NCBI RefSeq assembly: GCF_000025605.1
Contig: NC_013894.1
Coordinates: forward strand, 1,039,529-1,103,528
Reading direction: 5' to 3'
Length of the DNA: 64,000 bases
From: Thermocrinis albus DSM 14484
Lineage (GTDB): Bacteria > Aquificota > Aquificia > Aquificales > Aquificaceae
Shown: piece after piece, positions 2,493 to 10,315 of the stretch
How the letters are laid out: every line of letters starts with the position of its first letter
How positions within the stretch are numbered: the first letter of the stretch is position 1
Position numbers and translations under genes: made by a program
The notes under the pieces: model-generated
Databases searched by the model: none
What the model was told of the DNA's origin: nothing
What the model saw: only the letters and a program-made list of their open reading frames with translations

Positions 2493-3812
2493 TTAACTTA
2501 TAAGCTTCCTTAGGGTAGTCCTGGTGATACCTAAAACCTCAGCAGCCTTTACCTGAGAGCGGAGCTCTTCGTAAGCTGTTTTTGCCATAACTCTGGCCAT
2601 CATTTCCATCAAGCGGTTGTAGATGTTCCTCTCTCCTGCCCTTATCCTTCGCCTCACTTCTTCCTCCACTATAGTCAGTATATTGTGAGATGGACTTTCC
2701 ACTGATGGAAGATCCAGGTGCTTGGACGTGAGTATGGAACCGTAGCATACAGTGACAGCTTTCCTTATAGCATTTTCCAACTCCCTTACGTTGCCAGGCC
2801 ACGGATGTTCCAGTACGGTTCTCAGAAAGTCTTCTGTATAGCCTTCTATCCTTTTACCCAGCTCCTTGCATACCTTACTGAGTATGTAGTTGAGGAGCAT
2901 GGGTATTTCCGATCTCCTTTCCCTGAGGGGTGGTATGTGTATATGTATAACACTGATTCTGTAGTAGAGGTCTTCTCTGAATAGACCCTGTTTTACCATG
3001 TCCTTCAGGTCTCTGTTAGTGGCACACACTAACCTGAAGTTGACGGGTATCTCTCTGTTGCTACCAAGTCTACGTATCTTCCTGTCCTGCAAAACCCTCA
3101 GCAGCTTTGACTGTAGAGATAGGGGAAGCTCTCCCACCTCGTCCAGAAAGAGTATCCCTTTTTCTGCCTCCTCCATTAAGCCTCTCTTGGAACTCGTGGC
3201 ACCGGTAAAAGCTCCCTTTTCGTATCCAAAGAGCTCCGCCTCAAAGAGCTCATGAGGTATAGCAGCACAGTTAACCGCTACAAAGGGTCCCCTCCACCTG
3301 CTGGACAGCTTCCAGAGAGCCCTAGCAAAAGATTCCTTACCTGTTCCAGACTCGCCCGTGATAAGGACAGGCACATCGACGGATGCTGCCTTCCCCAGTA
3401 TGCGTAACACACTTCCCATAACACCTTCTGTGCTACCAGCTATGGAACAAAGCTCCTCACATAACTCACCGTGGAGGTAGGTATCCTCTGGTCTGAAAGG
3501 TATAACTCTTTCCCTATGTCTGAACTCTTCCTCCAGCTTTGCGTACAACTCCTTCCACTTATCCTCCCTCACCGGTTTTCTCAATACATCGTAGAATCCA
3601 AGACTTATAAGTTTCATTACATAACCAGGTATGCTGTTGGCGGTAATGGCTACGAGAACATTGTTTTCTCTGAGGTCCGCAAGAGGGGAAAGGCCCACCG
3701 TATCTACATCCAGAAGGATCACATAACCTTCTAGATCCTCCGGTGGTTCCTCCACTCGGTGCACACCGTTCAGACACAGTGTCTTGTCTCTGGTACAGAG
3801 AAGGACCTTCAT
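2493..3812 (-). CDS. Sigma-54-dependent transcriptional activator
   Basis: 439-residue bacterial enhancer-binding protein. Residues 1-115 resemble a receiver domain, with LLDVD at the phospho-acceptor position and RKP at the conserved lysine, but the N-terminal acidic pair is missing, so phosphorylation is doubtful. The AAA+ domain has Walker A GESGTGKE (about residue 152) and the sigma-54 contact loop GAFTGA (about 199). A Fis-type helix-turn-helix, AAEVLGITRTTLRKLI, closes the protein. I chose the ATG at 3812 because upstream codons encode no domain and the receiver fold begins there. It is divergent from the sulfur-assimilation operon, whose promoter has a sigma-54 signature, so it probably controls that operon; control of the hydrogenase is an alternative. 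Confidence 0.9.
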   Translation of the reverse strand: MKVLLCTRDKTLCLNGVHRVEEPPEDLEGYVILLDVDTVGLSPLADLRENNVLVAITANSIPGYVMKLISLGFYDVLRKPVREDKWKELYAKLEEEFRHRERVIPFRPEDTYLHGELCEELCSIAGSTEGVMGSVLRILGKAASVDVPVLITGESGTGKESFARALWKLSSRWRGPFVAVNCAAIPHELFEAELFGYEKGAFTGATSSKRGLMEEAEKGILFLDEVGELPLSLQSKLLRVLQDRKIRRLGSNREIPVNFRLVCATNRDLKDMVKQGLFREDLYYRISVIHIHIPPLRERRSEIPMLLNYILSKVCKELGKRIEGYTEDFLRTVLEHPWPGNVRELENAIRKAVTVCYGSILTSKHLDLPSVESPSHNILTIVEEEVRRRIRAGERNIYNRLMEMMARVMAKTAYEELRSQVKAAEVLGITRTTLRKLIS

Positions 3813-3837: not shown

Positions 3838-3903
3838 CCAAATAGACAAAAGGTTGTTAGGCTAAAGTATGAAACTGCGCCACTTTCCTCACTTCTTTTA
3901 TGT

Positions 3904-3917
3904 GGCATGTACCTTGC
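3904..3917 (+). promoter_or_regulatory. Sigma-54 (-24/-12) promoter of sulfur operon
   Basis: The sequence TGGCATG-TACC-TTGCAT matches the sigma-54 consensus TGGCACG-N4-TTGCA with one change. GG is at 3904-3905 and GC at 3916-3917, 12 nt apart, as required. Transcription would start near 3929, about 16 nt before the start codon at 3945, leaving room for the GGAGGTGG ribosome site at 3931-3938. The divergent sigma-54 activator gene next to it supports the call. Confidence 0.75.
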
Positions 3918-3944
3918 ATGTAATAGTTGTGGAGGTGGACGGTT

Positions 3945-6599
3945 ATGGTAAGTAGGGAAGTACTGGAGAAGAACCCTAGGGAGGCTTTGAAAATGGAGAA
4001 ACATCCTCTGGACATCCTAGAGGAGCTTCCCAGAATGATAGAGAAGGGGTACGAAGGTGTACCCGAAGAGGATCTTGTCAGACTTCAGTGGTACGGGCTT
4101 TATCATGACAAACCTCGTGTAGGCTACTTTCTGCTGAGAGTTAGAATACCTGGAGGGATTCTCACGCCTTCCCAGTTGAGGGTTTTGGGAGAACTTGCCA
4201 CTAGCTTTAACAACTACGCTGAACTTACCATGAGACAAGATCTTCAGCTCCATTACATACGTCTCGAACATCTACCTGAGGTGCTGGAGACATTAAAGGA
4301 AGTGGGTCTTTTCCCCGTGGGAGCCTGTGGAGATACTGTTCGCAACATAACGTGTTGCCCAGTGGCCGGACATCAGAGGGAGGAGTTAGAAGACGTGAGA
4401 CCTATTCTACACACATTGGAGAGTATCTTCCATGATCCTTCCCGTAGAGAACACTTTAACCTTCCCAGGAAGTTCAAAATAACAGTAACGGCGTGTCCTT
4501 ACCATTGCAGCATGCCAGAGATGCACGATCTTGCTTTTGTAGGAACTGTAAAGGATAGGGAATTTGGCTTTGCTGTATGGGTTGGTGGAGGACTATCCTC
4601 CACACCTAGAATAGCCAGAAAACTGGGAATTTTTATCCCACCAGATAAGGTAGGTGAGGTGGCCGAAGCGGTTGTCAGTATGTGGAGTCAGGATCCTGAG
4701 AACAGGAAATCTTTTGTGAAAGCACGGATAAAGTATTTTGTGGACAGGCTTGGTGTCGAAAGGTTTAAAGAGGAACTCCTCAAAAGACTATCCTTTGTAC
4801 CAGAGCCCCTGACGGAGGAGCCCAGGCCCGTAGCCCGTTTCTTTCATACAGGTATCAGAAAACAGAAGGAAGAAGGTTTTTACTACGTGGGTGTTCCTGT
4901 GCTGGCGGGGAGGGTGAGGGGGGACCAGTTACTTAGGCTAGCAGAACTGACGGAGAGATTGGACCTTTCCGTTAGAATAACCCAGAGACAGAATCTTCTT
5001 TTACTTAACGTAGCGGAAAATCACTTAGGGACCGTCCTGGAAAAACTGAAGGAGATAGGCTTCGACATGGATTCTGGTGAAACCAGGAGTGTTTCTGTGG
5101 CATGTACCAGTGATCCTTTCTGCAACTACTCGGTGGGAGCTGCAAAGGAAGCGCTAATAGAACTTCTTCAGTATCTGGAAGGAGAGCTAGGTAAGTTGGA
5201 AGGCCTGACAATAGGCGTAGATGGTTGTCCCCACGCGTGTGCCCATCACTGGTTGAATGACATAGGACTTCAGGCCACTCATCTGAGGCAACCGGACGGT
5301 TCTGTGGAAACCACCTACAACTTGGTACTGAGGGGAGGTTACGGTAAAGAAGCGAGCATAGGCAAGATAGTACTTAAAAAGGTTCCTTTTGTGGACCTGA
5401 AGGTGTTTATAAAGAACCTTGTAGCGGCCTATAAGAGATCGGGACTTTCCTCTTTCCACGAGTTTATCAACAGTTACACCGACGAGGAGCTTATAGAGAT
5501 CATGAAGGGAGAAAATAAAGCACGGCAGGACGAGGGGAAAGTTAGGGTCAGGATATTTGGTCCCCTCACGCGTTTTTCCGGTGGCTTATCTGAGATAGAG
5601 CTGCCTCCTGGTACCTTAAGGGAGATCTTGCGCCACCTAGAGACAGAACTGGAAGGTTTCAGGGGAAGACTTCTGGATGAGAACGGTAAACTCAAACCCT
5701 TTGTGAAAGTGTTTCTGAACGATGAAGACATCGCCTTCTTACCTGACGGTCTGAACACTACCGTTAGGGAAGGGGATGAGATCATGCTGTACCCTGCTTT
5801 AGCTGGTGGCGCACCGCCGCTTGATGAAACTGAAGTTCACGAACTGGCCATAGAGTTTGAGGACAAAACAGCCCATGATGTACTGCGCTGGGCCATAGAA
5901 AATCTCCATCCCAGACTTTACATAGCATGGAGTGGACAGGTGGAGGATATGGTCTTGTTGGATATGGCGTGGAGAATAAATCCGGCAGTACGTGTGTTCA
6001 CCGTGGATACAGGTAGATTACACGAAGAAACCTACCGGTTGATGGAGGAAGTATACGAAAGATATGGTGTAAGGATTGAGGTCTACTTTCCAGAACCGTC
6101 CGATGTGGAGAAAATGGTGAAAGAACACGGCGTTAATCTCTTCTATCGCTCCGTAGAGCTAAGACACCTGTGCTGTTATGTAAGAAAGGTAAAACCCCTG
6201 CTGAGGGCTCTGTCTCAGGTGGACGGATGGGTTACAGGTCTCAGAAGAGAGCAATGGGCCAGTAGGCATAACATCATGAAGCTAGAAGTTGACCATGACC
6301 ATGGCCAGATCGTAAAGGTCAACCCATTAGCCGATTGGACAGAGAGGGAGGTATGGCAGTACATCAGAGAAAACTCTGTACCCTACAACCAGCTCTATTC
6401 TAGAGGTTACAGAAGCATAGGTTGTGAGCCGTGCACGAGACCAGTAGCCCCCTTTGAAGATCCGAGAGCTGGTAGATGGTGGTGGGAAAAGGACGCTCCA
6501 AAAGAGTGTGGTATGCACTGCAGTATAGAGACCGGAGGCTTTGAGAAGATAGCCGACAAACTGATAAGGGAGGACAAGCATGGCTATAAGGGTTCTTGA
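3945..6599 (+). CDS. Sulfite reductase / ubiquitin-like (MoaD/ThiS) / APS reductase fusion
   Basis: An 884-residue protein with three parts. Residues 1-525 are a siroheme sulfite reductase: two ferredoxin-like repeats, GDTVRNITCCPVAG near residue 129, and the [4Fe-4S]/siroheme ligands C-x5-C (ACTSDPFC, about 386) and C-x3-C (GCPHAC, about 426). Residues 532-621 are a MoaD/ThiS/CysO-like beta-grasp domain ending in an internal Gly-Gly (AGGAPP, about 620). Residues 622-884 are an APS reductase with the cluster cysteines CC (HLCCYVRK, about 740) and GCEPC (about 826), plus the catalytic tail ECGMHC. It would reduce APS to sulfite and sulfite to sulfide on one chain. The ATG at 3945 was chosen over an in-frame TTG at 3927 because GGAGGTGG lies between them. 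The reading frame is open throughout. Confidence 0.92.
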   Translation: MVSREVLEKNPREALKMEKHPLDILEELPRMIEKGYEGVPEEDLVRLQWYGLYHDKPRVGYFLLRVRIPGGILTPSQLRVLGELATSFNNYAELTMRQDLQLHYIRLEHLPEVLETLKEVGLFPVGACGDTVRNITCCPVAGHQREELEDVRPILHTLESIFHDPSRREHFNLPRKFKITVTACPYHCSMPEMHDLAFVGTVKDREFGFAVWVGGGLSSTPRIARKLGIFIPPDKVGEVAEAVVSMWSQDPENRKSFVKARIKYFVDRLGVERFKEELLKRLSFVPEPLTEEPRPVARFFHTGIRKQKEEGFYYVGVPVLAGRVRGDQLLRLAELTERLDLSVRITQRQNLLLLNVAENHLGTVLEKLKEIGFDMDSGETRSVSVACTSDPFCNYSVGAAKEALIELLQYLEGELGKLEGLTIGVDGCPHACAHHWLNDIGLQATHLRQPDGSVETTYNLVLRGGYGKEASIGKIVLKKVPFVDLKVFIKNLVAAYKRSGLSSFHEFINSYTDEELIEIMKGENKARQDEGKVRVRIFGPLTRFSGGLSEIELPPGTLREILRHLETELEGFRGRLLDENGKLKPFVKVFLNDEDIAFLPDGLNTTVREGDEIMLYPALAGGAPPLDETEVHELAIEFEDKTAHDVLRWAIENLHPRLYIAWSGQVEDMVLLDMAWRINPAVRVFTVDTGRLHEETYRLMEEVYERYGVRIEVYFPEPSDVEKMVKEHGVNLFYRSVELRHLCCYVRKVKPLLRALSQVDGWVTGLRREQWASRHNIMKLEVDHDHGQIVKVNPLADWTEREVWQYIRENSVPYNQLYSRGYRSIGCEPCTRPVAPFEDPRAGRWWWEKDAPKECGMHCSIETGGFEKIADKLIREDKHGYKGS

Positions 6600-6873
6600 G
6601 AAAGTGAGTGTGGAAGGCTTAATAAAAGAACTCACATTGAGGGGTTGGAAGGAGGGGAAGTTTAATGGAAAGCAAGCCATGTTTAAGGAATTTGAAAACT
6701 ACCTGTGGGTTGCAGTAATAGAAGAGTATCCCTACTTTCTATCCCTTCCAAAGGAGGAAAGCTCTAAGGTACACTCGGAGGGTATGAAAAAACTGATAGA
6801 GGAGGTAAGTCAACTGGCCACCCAACTAAACTTCTCATTACCCGTTAAGCCAGGAGGTGGCTACCATGTTTGA
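6580..6873 (+). CDS. Hypothetical 97-residue protein in sulfur operon
   Basis: Unrecognised small soluble protein. It starts 20 nt inside the end of the fusion gene, with AGGGAGGA upstream of its ATG, so translation is likely coupled. The sequence is a mixed alpha/beta pattern with several aromatics (NYLWVAVIEEYPYFLSL), no cysteine, no signal peptide and no membrane segment. The C-terminus is KPGGGYHV, with glycines close to the end, but it does not otherwise look like a ubiquitin-like fold. Its position suggests a role with the reductase or in sulfur transfer. Confidence 0.8.
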   Translation: MAIRVLEKVSVEGLIKELTLRGWKEGKFNGKQAMFKEFENYLWVAVIEEYPYFLSLPKEESSKVHSEGMKKLIEEVSQLATQLNFSLPVKPGGGYHV

Positions 6874-7615
6874 GTTTGCTATCTTTGGATTCTTCATAGC
6901 TTTTGCCATAGGATTGACAGGTGTGGGTGCTGGTACTCTTACTGCACCTCTTCTCATCTTGCTTGGCTTAGATCCTGCAAAAGCTGTTGGTTCTGCTTTG
7001 GCCTTCTCAACAGTGGTGAAGTTCCCGGCAGTGCTTGCTCATGCCGTCTACAAAAATTTGGATTATAAAACCCTTCTCCTTATGCTTGTGGGAGGAGTTC
7101 CTGGTACACTCTTGGGTTCTCTTCTTCTCACACTGTTCCATGACCCCTCAAGATTAAAGAAGATCCTCCTTCTGGTGATAGGTATAACGGTGATCTTCTC
7201 CATCCTTCTAAATCTCCTTATGATTTGGAAAGGTAAGCGCTTGGACTTAACTAGATATAGATATCTTCTGCCTGTTGCCTGCTTCCTAATAGGCCTTGAA
7301 GTTGGTTTCACGTCTGCCGGTGCTGGAGCCTTGGGTATGGTACTGCTCTTGTACTTTACAAACCTGAGCCCTGCAAGAGCGGTTGGTGTGGATATAGCCT
7401 TTGGTCTGGCTTGTTCTTTTGTGGGTGGTACCTCTCACTTTTTACAAGGTCATACAGATTTGGGAGTTTTTCTTCCCATGTCCTTAGGTGGTCTTGCTGG
7501 AGTGTTTCTTGGAACTCATTTAGCAAGGACCGTAAACCCCAAGCCTCTAAGGGTAATCATATCACTACTACTTCTCATAGTTGCCGTGAACCTCATACAG
7601 AGGGGTTTGAGATGA
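6866..7615 (+). CDS. TauE/SafE family sulfur-anion permease
   Basis: 249-residue inner-membrane protein with two related halves of hydrophobic helices, each opening with a glycine-rich motif (GLTGVGAGTLTAPLL near the N-terminus; GFTSAGAGALGMVLL in the middle), the hallmark of the TauE/SafE (DUF81) family. Members move sulfite, sulfoacetate or other sulfur anions. Inside a sulfate-assimilation operon it may import sulfate or export excess sulfite; direction cannot be read from sequence. The ATG at 6866 is preferred because the in-frame GTG at 6857 lies in its AGGAGGTGG ribosome site. It overlaps the preceding gene by 8 nt and the next by 4 nt. Confidence 0.88.
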   Translation: MFEFAIFGFFIAFAIGLTGVGAGTLTAPLLILLGLDPAKAVGSALAFSTVVKFPAVLAHAVYKNLDYKTLLLMLVGGVPGTLLGSLLLTLFHDPSRLKKILLLVIGITVIFSILLNLLMIWKGKRLDLTRYRYLLPVACFLIGLEVGFTSAGAGALGMVLLLYFTNLSPARAVGVDIAFGLACSFVGGTSHFLQGHTDLGVFLPMSLGGLAGVFLGTHLARTVNPKPLRVIISLLLLIVAVNLIQRGLR

Positions 7616-8373
7616 TGGGTAAAGTCTACATAGTGGGAGCAGGACCTGGAGATGTGGAACTTCTTACCTTAAAGGCTGTGAGGATAATAAAGGAAGCGGA
7701 TGTTATCCTCTACGACAGATTGGTCAGTGAGGACATACTCCAGTTGGCGAGACCCGACTGTGAGATTATCTACGTAGGGAAGGAAGAGGGTAAACACACA
7801 CCACAGGACAGTATCAACAGGATGTTGGTGGAACTTTCTAAAGTTTACAGAAGGGTGGTGAGACTGAAGGGAGGGGATCCTTTCGTGTTTGGAAGGGGTG
7901 CGGAGGAAGCGCTCTATCTTGCTCAAAAGGGTGTTGAGTTTGAGGTGGTTCCTGGTGTCAGTTCGGTGACTGGTGTACCTACGTACGTAGGGATACCCCT
8001 CACCATGAGGGGTGTTTCTTCCTCCTTTGGAGTGGTGACTGGGCACGAGGGGGAAGGTTGTTACGGTGTGAGGTGGGAGCTGAGCAAATACGTGGACACT
8101 CTGGTGGTGGTGATGGGTGTGGGTAAGAGGCAGGAGATAGGTAGGAAGCTGTTGGAGTTGGGGAGGGATGCTGAAGAGCCCGTGGCCTTTGTGGAGAGGG
8201 GATGCACATCCAGGCAGAGGGTTGTGGTGACCAGTTTAGGTAGGTTGGCCAGTGATCCACCACCTGTGGAACCTCCTGCGTTGCTGGTGGTGGGTAAAGT
8301 GGTGGATCTAATAAACACACTGGGAAAGGAGGTAGAGAGATGGCGGCAGAACCCTACGGTGGTCATCTGGTGA
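7612..8373 (+). CDS. cobA: Uroporphyrinogen-III C-methyltransferase
   Basis: 253-residue SAM-dependent methyltransferase that converts uroporphyrinogen III to precorrin-2, the first step to siroheme, the cofactor needed by the sulfite reductase encoded upstream. Family motifs are VYIVGAGPGDVELLTLKA at the N-terminus, YVGKEEGKH, RLKGGDPFVFGRGAEEA and VVPGVSSVTGVP. It has the methyltransferase domain only, with no fused precorrin-2 dehydrogenase/ferrochelatase, so another gene must finish siroheme. The start overlaps the permease stop (ATGA); a second in-frame ATG follows at once. The C-terminus overlaps the ATP sulfurylase gene by 34 nt. Confidence 0.93.
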   Translation: MMGKVYIVGAGPGDVELLTLKAVRIIKEADVILYDRLVSEDILQLARPDCEIIYVGKEEGKHTPQDSINRMLVELSKVYRRVVRLKGGDPFVFGRGAEEALYLAQKGVEFEVVPGVSSVTGVPTYVGIPLTMRGVSSSFGVVTGHEGEGCYGVRWELSKYVDTLVVVMGVGKRQEIGRKLLELGRDAEEPVAFVERGCTSRQRVVVTSLGRLASDPPPVEPPALLVVGKVVDLINTLGKEVERWRQNPTVVIW

Positions 8374-9491
8374 ACAGAGTTATTCCGGAAAGAGAAAGGG
8401 AGCGTGTGCTAGAAGAGGCTTCCCGCTTTCCGAGACTGGAGATGGACATGGACACAGCCCTCGACGTGGAAAACATAGCCACCGGTGTTTTCTCCCCTTT
8501 AAAGGGTTTTATGACAAAGGAGGAACTGGAAAGTGTGGCCCACAACATGACGTTACCGGATGGTCTCGTGTGGACCATACCCATACTTCTTCAACTTCCT
8601 CAAAGACCTCAGTTTCAGAAAGGGGACAGGGTGGCGCTCACCTTTCGTGGTAAGGTCAGAGCCATACTGGAGGTGAAGGATATATATACTCTGGATCTTT
8701 TGACTATAGCGAAGGCTGTGTGGGGAACCGACAGCACAGAGCATCCTGGTGTGAACAAATTCCTCTCCAGAGGTGAATGGGCAGTAGGAGGAGAGATATG
8801 GCTGGTGGAAAAAATGGAGAATCCCTACTCCGTGTGGTTGTTGGAACCTGCAGAAACCAGGAAGATCTTCCAGTACAGAGGATGGAAAACAGTGGTGGGG
8901 TTCCAAACAAGAAATGCACCACACAGGGGGCATGAGTATTTGCAAAGGCTAGGCTTGGAGATAGCAGACGGTCTGTTCATAAACCCGGTACTCGGTTGGA
9001 AGAAGTCTGACGATTTTGATTCCCTTACTGTTATTAAAGCTTACCAACTTCTTATAAACACTTACTATCCCGTAGATAGGGTGCTGCTGGCAGGGTTGGC
9101 TACAGCCATGAGATACGCAGGTCCAAGGGAGGCGGTGTTTCACGCCATTGTGAGAAAAAACTTTGGGTGTACCCACTTTGTGGTAGGAAGGGATCATGCT
9201 GGAGTAGGTAATTTTTACGGGCCCTACGACGCTCACCGTATCTTTGACCGGCTTCCTTCCTCCATAGGTATAGAGGTGATCAAGGTGTCAGATGTGTTCT
9301 ACTGTAGGAAATGTGAGGGTATGGCTTCTTCCAAAAGTTGTGGTCACAGTGAGGAAGAGAGGATCTACGTTAGCATGACCAAAATAAGGAAGATGTTGGC
9401 GGAAGGAGAACTACCTCCGGAAGAGATGATAAGACCCGACATAGCGCGTTTTCTTCTTAGACATTACTCCTACCAGGGAACGAGCTTATAA
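8340..9491 (+). CDS. sat: ATP sulfurylase (sulfate adenylyltransferase)
   Basis: 383 residues. Makes APS from sulfate and ATP, the substrate of the APS reductase domain in the operon's first gene. The nucleotide-binding motifs QTRNAPHRGHEYLQR and GRDHAGVGNFYGPYD are intact, and a zinc site CRKC...SCGH is seen near residue 325, as in thermophile homodimeric enzymes. There is no fused APS kinase, which agrees with a pathway that reduces APS directly instead of PAPS. A GGAGG ribosome site precedes the ATG, which lies inside the end of cobA. Confidence 0.96.
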   Translation: MAAEPYGGHLVNRVIPERERERVLEEASRFPRLEMDMDTALDVENIATGVFSPLKGFMTKEELESVAHNMTLPDGLVWTIPILLQLPQRPQFQKGDRVALTFRGKVRAILEVKDIYTLDLLTIAKAVWGTDSTEHPGVNKFLSRGEWAVGGEIWLVEKMENPYSVWLLEPAETRKIFQYRGWKTVVGFQTRNAPHRGHEYLQRLGLEIADGLFINPVLGWKKSDDFDSLTVIKAYQLLINTYYPVDRVLLAGLATAMRYAGPREAVFHAIVRKNFGCTHFVVGRDHAGVGNFYGPYDAHRIFDRLPSSIGIEVIKVSDVFYCRKCEGMASSKSCGHSEEERIYVSMTKIRKMLAEGELPPEEMIRPDIARFLLRHYSYQGTSL

Positions 9492-9499: not shown

Positions 9500-10315
9500 A
9501 TGTTCAGGCTCACGGAAGAACAGATAAAGCGTTACGCACGTCACATAATACTACCTGAGGTAGGAGGAAAGGGTCAAGAGAAGCTCCTCTCCTCCAAGGT
9601 ACTGGTTATAGGGGCAGGTGGTCTAGGATCTCCCGCCATATTCTACTTGGCCGCCGCCGGTGTGGGCACTATAGGCATAGTGGACTTTGACGTGGTGGAT
9701 TTTTCCAACCTGCAGAGGCAGATACTTCACACCACCGACAGGGTAGGTATACCCAAGGTGGAGTCTGCCAAAAGGACGGTGGAGGCCCTCAATCCGGACG
9801 TGAAGGTCATTACCTACAACACCATGATCAACAAAAACAACATTATGGAGATAATAAAGGATTATGACGTGGTACTGGATGGGACAGACAACTTTCCCAC
9901 TCGGTTTCTGATAAACGACGCTTGTTACTTCATGGGTAAACCCCTTGTGTCGGCGGCTATGCTGAGGTTTGAAGGACAGATAACGGTGTTTGATTTCCGC
10001 GATAGGGAAAACTCCCCCTGTTACAGGTGTCTGTACCCAGAGCCGCCACCTCCAGGCCTTGTGCCCTCCTGTCAGGAAGCAGGTATACTGGGTTCCATAG
10101 GTGGGATAATGGGGTGCATACAGGCAACGGAGGCTATAAAACTGCTCTTAGGTATAGGTGAACCCCTCGTAGGTAAGCTTCTCATAATGGACGCCCTTTC
10201 TATGGATTTTAGGAAGGTGAAGCTCAGGAAGGATCCTTCCTGTCCTCTTTGCAGTGAGAAGGCCACTATAAAGGAACTTATAGAGTACCAACAGACGTGC
10301 GACGCTCATTTCTGA
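9500..10315 (+). CDS. moeB: E1-like sulfur-carrier adenylyltransferase (MoeB/ThiF family)
   Basis: 271-residue ATP-dependent enzyme that adenylates the C-terminal glycine of a ubiquitin-like sulfur carrier. It has the nucleotide-binding GAGGLGSPAIFYLAAAGVG, the DGTDNFPTRFLINDAC segment, the family cysteine in PSCQEAGILG, and two zinc CxxC pairs (CYRC, CPLC). There is no rhodanese domain. It may serve MoaD/ThiS elsewhere, but its place behind ATP sulfurylase makes the ubiquitin-like domain of the sulfite-reductase fusion a likely partner. The gene begins 8 nt after sat without an obvious ribosome site and is followed 1 nt later by pdxJ. Confidence 0.92.
   Translation: MFRLTEEQIKRYARHIILPEVGGKGQEKLLSSKVLVIGAGGLGSPAIFYLAAAGVGTIGIVDFDVVDFSNLQRQILHTTDRVGIPKVESAKRTVEALNPDVKVITYNTMINKNNIMEIIKDYDVVLDGTDNFPTRFLINDACYFMGKPLVSAAMLRFEGQITVFDFRDRENSPCYRCLYPEPPPPGLVPSCQEAGILGSIGGIMGCIQATEAIKLLLGIGEPLVGKLLIMDALSMDFRKVKLRKDPSCPLCSEKATIKELIEYQQTCDAHF

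Follow-up and report, generated by a model that had tools for sequence, protein, structure and literature searches.

A thiocarboxylate on a ubiquitin-like (Ubl) sulfur carrier requires a free C-terminal glycine. In the HcyS pathway of Wolinella, which Krishnamoorthy and Begley are said to have described in 2011, the Ubl reportedly needs processing, the E1 lacks a rhodanese domain and there is a gene link to sulfate reduction. NirA/SirA-type sulfite reductases and bacterial APS reductases usually occur as two proteins, neither of which has a carrier domain. Fusions of sulfite reductase with ThiS have been described in the actinobacteria Nocardioides and Acidothermus, and JAB peptidases were proposed to free fused ThiS/MoaD domains (Iyer et al. 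2006, PMC1779556). MoaX of Mycobacterium tuberculosis is cut between Gly82 and Ser83, which is a condition of its activity (PMC4326299), and DRJAMM cuts DR2607, a MoaD-MoaE fusion of Deinococcus (PMC8832034).

Here we describe a chain of Thermocrinis albus in which a Ubl domain lies between a sulfite reductase (SiR) and an APS reductase (APR), a testable case of a sulfide-producing enzyme possibly joined physically to a protein sulfide carrier. We consider it probable, though well short of certain, that the fusion is a precursor, which a JAMM peptidase would cut after Gly622, leaving the SiR with a tethered carrier onto which sulfide may be channelled as a thiocarboxylate. If so, a metabolic enzyme would need the cutting of a ubiquitin-like precursor in order to mature.

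Domain organisation of the fused chain

The T. albus genome is a single contig of 1,500,577 bp, the size published for strain HI 11/12 (PMC3035279), and the window analysed is a stretch of 64,000 nucleotides from it. Positions 3945-6599 (+ strand) form one open frame of 884 residues in which Pfam recognised a SiR, then a Ubl and then an APR, as the original prediction had read from the letters alone. The siroheme-cluster, beta-grasp Gly-Gly and APR motifs it had listed were all located in the chain, and its claim that every reductive step from APS to sulfide lies within one protein is borne out by the domain identities.

The SiR part (residues 1-530; 3945-5534, + strand) is matched by NIR_SIR_ferr (E 1e-35) and NIR_SIR (E 5e-50) across its first ~525 residues, with the siroheme/4Fe-4S cysteines at Cys387-x5-Cys393 and Cys428-x3-Cys432. 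Lys-x-Lys marks sulfite reductases and Lys-x-Asn nitrite reductases. The signature, at residues 176-178 of the chain, lies in the stretch LPRKFK in the fusion and its Aquificaceae homologues and in LPRKFN in the nitrite reductase paralogue, the other siroheme enzyme of T. albus, and a nitrite reductase identity was ruled out by the Lys-x-Lys in place of Lys-x-Asn. Judged by its sequence, this part is an assimilatory ferredoxin-type sulfite reductase of the one-subunit NirA/SirA kind; the closest solved chain, PDB 1zj8 (NirA/SirA-type), has active-site motifs and fold in common with it. Similarly, the C-terminal part (residues 626-884; 5820-6596, + strand) is identified by its motifs and family matches as a thioredoxin-dependent APS reductase, with PAPS_reduct at 658-833 (E 3e-51), a TIGR02055 score of 276 against a cut-off of 235, and the motifs CC (743-744), CxxC (827-830) and ECGMHC (854-859). 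Its closest solved chain is the bacterial APS reductase PDB 2goy, with which it shares active-site motifs and fold.

Between the two enzymes lies the Ubl domain (residues 533-622; 5541-5810, + strand), matched by Pfam ThiS at 535-622 (E 6e-8; score 33.5 bits, cut-off 22.5). By phmmer, CysO chains were the closest solved relatives in sequence (4n6e_B, 1.3e-11; 3dwg_C, 1.5e-11), and in NCBIfam the best match was SAMP1, with 49.7 bits under a cut-off of 60. The isolated domain was predicted as a beta-grasp (a modest model, pLDDT 74), which Foldseek matched to CysO (4n6e, 3dwg), SAMP1 and Urm1. It is, on these matches, a member of the CysO-like thiocarboxylate-carrier superfamily (ThiS/MoaD/CysO) and may itself carry a thiocarboxylate. 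The beta-grasp fold and Gly-Gly expected of the middle domain are thus both present: the Gly-Gly at 621-622 closes the domain, and every Aquificaceae member, whether fused or split, has ALAGG unchanged.

This Gly-Gly is internal, with 262 residues encoded after Gly622. The earlier proposal that the fusion loads sulfide onto its own carrier is supported in that the domain is genuinely CysO-like, but is incomplete, as an internal Gly-Gly cannot bear a thiocarboxylate without a cut. A full-length structure model (pLDDT 79, pTM 0.75, from an alignment of 14 sequences) was mostly confident for the SiR and APR parts. Its confidence was low at 524-531 and very low at 618-624, which fits flexible joints flanking the Ubl on both sides.

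Distribution, split forms and gene neighbourhood

The three-part chain was found in nine of the 136 Aquificota genomes searched (among them G029), all nine belonging to the 64 Aquificaceae, so that the domain order is real and a misassembly is ruled out. One genome (G039) has two fused copies, and another (G049) has a further copy truncated at a contig end. The ten fused proteins compared are 67-72% identical to that of T. albus. The Ubl-APR stretch, run as a query against 84,980 species genomes, found no three-part chain outside Aquificaceae, although such a query reaches close relatives only.

In four other genomes (G007, G011, G013, G018) SiR-Ubl and APR are separate, overlapping genes, and an equivalent join, ALAGGVS-stop, was seen in G008, where the contig ends. 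The split SiR-Ubl proteins end in ALAGG followed by AL, VS or VDNEV, that is, Gly-Gly plus two to five residues. It was also observed in split relatives (L043, L044, L046) that the Gly-Gly codons GGA GGT resemble a Shine-Dalgarno sequence for the overlapping APR gene. SiR-Ubl proteins ending exactly in Gly-Gly occur in two of 400 Chloroflexota genomes (L165, 5265-7193; L166, 5618-7519), with the ends PALAGG-stop and AMSGG-stop, and APR is the next gene, 15-18 bp downstream. In the SiR tree these two fall among Chloroflexota and Acidobacteria proteins that have no Ubl, separate from Aquificaceae (100/100); their C-terminal Ubl is probably an independent gain, the alternative being repeated loss. 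In the Ubl tree, the SiR-linked Aquificaceae domains are a single clade (100/98), within which those of the fused chains group together (98/96); this is consistent with one retained fusion.

Near-identical cassettes were found across genera (G025, L036, with one of the G039 copies; G028, L035, with G046, L034), and G039 has two distinct complete cassettes (L038, L039), which together point to horizontal movement. The suggestion that the fusion protects a hot cell from losing H2S is not favoured, since SiR-Ubl also occurs in the two Chloroflexota and most of the 64 Aquificaceae genomes searched are without the cassette.

The Aquificaceae cassette consists of a divergent NtrC-type activator, SiR-Ubl-APR, a 97-residue orphan, a TauE-family transporter, a uroporphyrinogen methyltransferase (missing from some cassettes) and ATP sulfurylase. 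In T. albus, a sigma-54-type -24/-12 site, TGGCATGTACCTTGCA (3903-3918, + strand), agrees with 11 of 12 consensus positions, and no other site on the two strands of the window reaches 10; similar sites lie upstream of most homologous genes. The divergent sigma-54 activator (2493-3812, - strand; Sigma54_activat, E 2e-69) neighbours the fusion in relatives too, and no receiver domain was found in it by Pfam. Downstream, on the + strand, follow the 97-residue protein (6580-6873), a TauE/TSUP-family transporter (6857-7615; TauE, 5e-41), a uroporphyrinogen-III C-methyltransferase, which may supply siroheme (7612-8373; over the TIGR01469 cut-off), ATP sulfurylase, sat (8340-9491; over the TIGR00339 and NF003166 cut-offs), and a MoeB/ThiF-family E1 without a rhodanese domain (9500-10315; PF00899, E 1e-88). 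The E1 starts 9 bp downstream of sat in T. albus; such adjacency was seen in no other cassette compared, and the E1 was thus rejected as a conserved cassette member. The 97-residue protein has no Pfam match at E<=10 and no cysteines; its gene comes after APR in the Ubl-bearing Aquificaceae cassettes, and a Chloroflexi relative has it there as well (L055, ~6515-6793).

Proposed processing of the chain and alternative readings

As no thiocarboxylate can form on a Gly-Gly within the chain, the working form would have to be a cut product, SiR-Ubl-GG with a free APR. In the precursor reading, Sat would make APS from sulfate, APR would reduce APS to sulfite and SiR would reduce sulfite to sulfide. 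The JAMM/Mec-type metalloprotease of the genome would cut the chain post-translationally after Gly622, giving a SiR-Ubl with a free Gly-Gly and a separate APR. The single E1 would then adenylate the Gly-Gly of the SiR-tethered Ubl, sulfide from the SiR would displace the adenylate, and the resulting thiocarboxylate may give its sulfur to PLP enzymes, either CysM (for cysteine) or a ThrC-like enzyme (possibly for homocysteine).

The candidate partners are present in the genome. Exactly one E1 over cut-off was found in each of the 20 genomes examined, T. albus included. Of the 64 Aquificaceae, 60 have a JAMM domain that exceeds the Pfam cut-off; the motif E...HSHPDHPDRPS..D is intact in T. albus, as is the catalytic motif in ten others that were read, and the T. 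albus gene lies next to asd, more than 370 kb from the fusion. T. albus CysM is over the TIGR01138 cut-off and is 61% identical to a CysM whose neighbours include a JAMM gene and a fusion of Ubl, E1 and rhodanese. Chains in which a Ubl-Gly-Gly is joined in line to an E1 were seen at three loci (L151, 1370-2815; L152, 349-1815; L150, 5420-6517), with a rhodanese-like C-terminus in two Acidobacteria and with CysM and JAMM genes nearby in two genomes; such chains would likewise need a cut to work.

Three lines of evidence suggest cutting. The C-termini of SiR-Ubl proteins form a natural series, from an exact Gly-Gly via short caps to a whole enzyme. Additionally, YPALAGG (residues 616-622; 5790-5810, + strand), with the proposed cut after Gly622, was found by codon alignment and an invariant-run scan of the ten fused proteins to be the sole invariant run of at least six residues between SiR and APR. 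Its Gly-Gly codons change synonymously (GGT GGC, GGA GGT, GGT GGT, GGA GGC), while drift is seen in the residues next to it on the APR side, as in the first linker. Third, the stand-alone Ubls of the family keep AIAGG and either stop there or go on for 1, 2, 3 or 5 unrelated residues (R, V, HR, YR, YLT, YLM, SLRET), a variability expected if whatever follows Gly-Gly is removed.

Some observations weigh against the precursor reading. The JAMM and E1 are also accounted for by the stand-alone Ubl, MoaD and ThiS; the JAMM lies outside the cassette, and the E1 is beside sat in T. albus only. Conservation of the Gly-Gly could be partly structural. A cut after Gly622 would also mean that APR and SiR are no longer covalently joined, and for the retention of a fusion that is always cut the reading offers no explanation beyond 1:1 production or delayed activation. 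A bolder form of it, which we regard as less likely than not, holds that sulfide from the SiR is caught directly by the adenylated Gly-Gly of its own tethered Ubl, with APR as a removable carrier cap. Sulfur would then pass from sulfate to amino acid largely without free sulfide, and the thiocarboxylate would serve CysM and a homocysteine-making ThrC-like enzyme linked to a Ubl.

The chain may instead work as an intact bifunctional enzyme, the Ubl being a relic or a structural spacer by which the two reductases are kept together for the passage of sulfite from APR to SiR. The single open frame in all nine genomes would agree with this, and SiR and APR genes are adjacent without any Ubl in Chloroflexota and Acidobacteria, which indicates that the coupling of both enzymes is old. 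However, a spacer is not expected to hold YPALAGG unchanged while the first linker drifts, SiR-Ubl proteins ending at or just past Gly-Gly occur without the APR fusion in two phyla, and the predicted tail at 618-624, with its very low confidence, resembles a free tail and not a packed interface. We regard an intact enzyme as unlikely.

Less likely still is a chain that is cut but whose Ubl serves regulation or turnover, through SAMP-like conjugation or partner delivery, in place of sulfur transfer. SAMP-type Ubls of archaea have both sulfur-transfer and conjugation jobs; among NCBIfam models the Ubl is closest to SAMP1, and the JAMM scores 81 against desampylase, under a cut-off of 130. Against these stand the CysO sulfur carriers as the closest solved relatives by sequence, and the position of the carrier on a sulfite reductase in a sulfate-assimilation cassette, which is repeated in Chloroflexota and found also in actinobacteria (Iyer 2006). 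Although the genes of the split relatives overlap (ATGA), and a small indel would join them, there is a negligible probability that the fusion stems from an error in sequencing or assembly, or from two genes joined in frame by chance, given a fused form in nine genomes, with one Ubl clade and the identity to the T. albus protein noted above.

As regards sulfur acceptors for the precursor reading, MetY and DUF39/HcyBio were rejected as T. albus sulfur sinks: no Cys/Met-metabolism PLP enzyme (PF01053) is over cut-off in T. albus, where the matches are weak and partial, and a search of eight Aquificaceae, T. albus among them, gave no DUF39/HcyBio. A ThrC-like PLP enzyme of 410 residues is encoded in T. 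albus (L153, 2821-4053; G000:C1, 523820-525049) and in 59 of the 64 Aquificaceae, as a second one beside ThrC352. Directly after this gene, on the same strand, a stand-alone CysO-like Ubl gene follows in eleven genomes, and a Chloroflexi genome has the order ThrC-like, Ubl, E1; L108, L117 and L150 are further loci with the enzyme. It is a reasonable guess that this enzyme is a candidate thiocarboxylate-dependent homocysteine synthase of Aquifex-type bacteria. The lead bears on how such autotrophs make homocysteine, as Aquifex aeolicus has no known homocysteine pathway (Price et al. 2018, PMC5764234). The split and fused relatives constitute a natural experiment, and gene disruption works in Hydrogenobacter thermophilus (PMC3317640).

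Comparison with described systems

The actinobacterial SiR-ThiS proteins are, by description (PMC1779556), similar to the T. albus chain in having a Ubl at the C-terminus of the SiR and sulfur-assimilation neighbourhoods with E1 and JAB; however, the Ubl is terminal there, whereas in T. albus APS reductase comes after it. Likewise, the sulfur-assimilation operon of class 4e of Iyer 2006 has the JAB within the cluster, while the T. albus JAMM lies elsewhere, beside asd.

The carrier of Wolinella HcyS is reportedly similar in its need for processing, in an E1 without rhodanese and in its sulfate reduction genes. It is reportedly unfused, whereas that of T. albus is fused and the genome has no MetY-family acceptor over the Pfam cut-off. 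The CysO/CysM/Mec+ system of M. tuberculosis (PMC3227635) shares the CysO-like domain, a CysM-type synthase, a JAMM and an E1, but it uses a free CysO and an E1 (MoeZ) with a rhodanese domain, while the T. albus carrier is SiR-tethered and its E1 is without one.

MoaX and DR2607 are comparable as in-line chains of Ubl, Gly-Gly and enzyme with a JAMM in the genome, and the residues at the cut are alike, Gly-Ser in MoaX and Gly-Ala or Gly-Ser at the proposed site in the fusions. Those two-domain proteins belong to Moco synthesis and have the Ubl first, whereas in T. albus the Ubl is in the middle; their cleavage is demonstrated, whereas that of the T. albus fusion is the step we infer.
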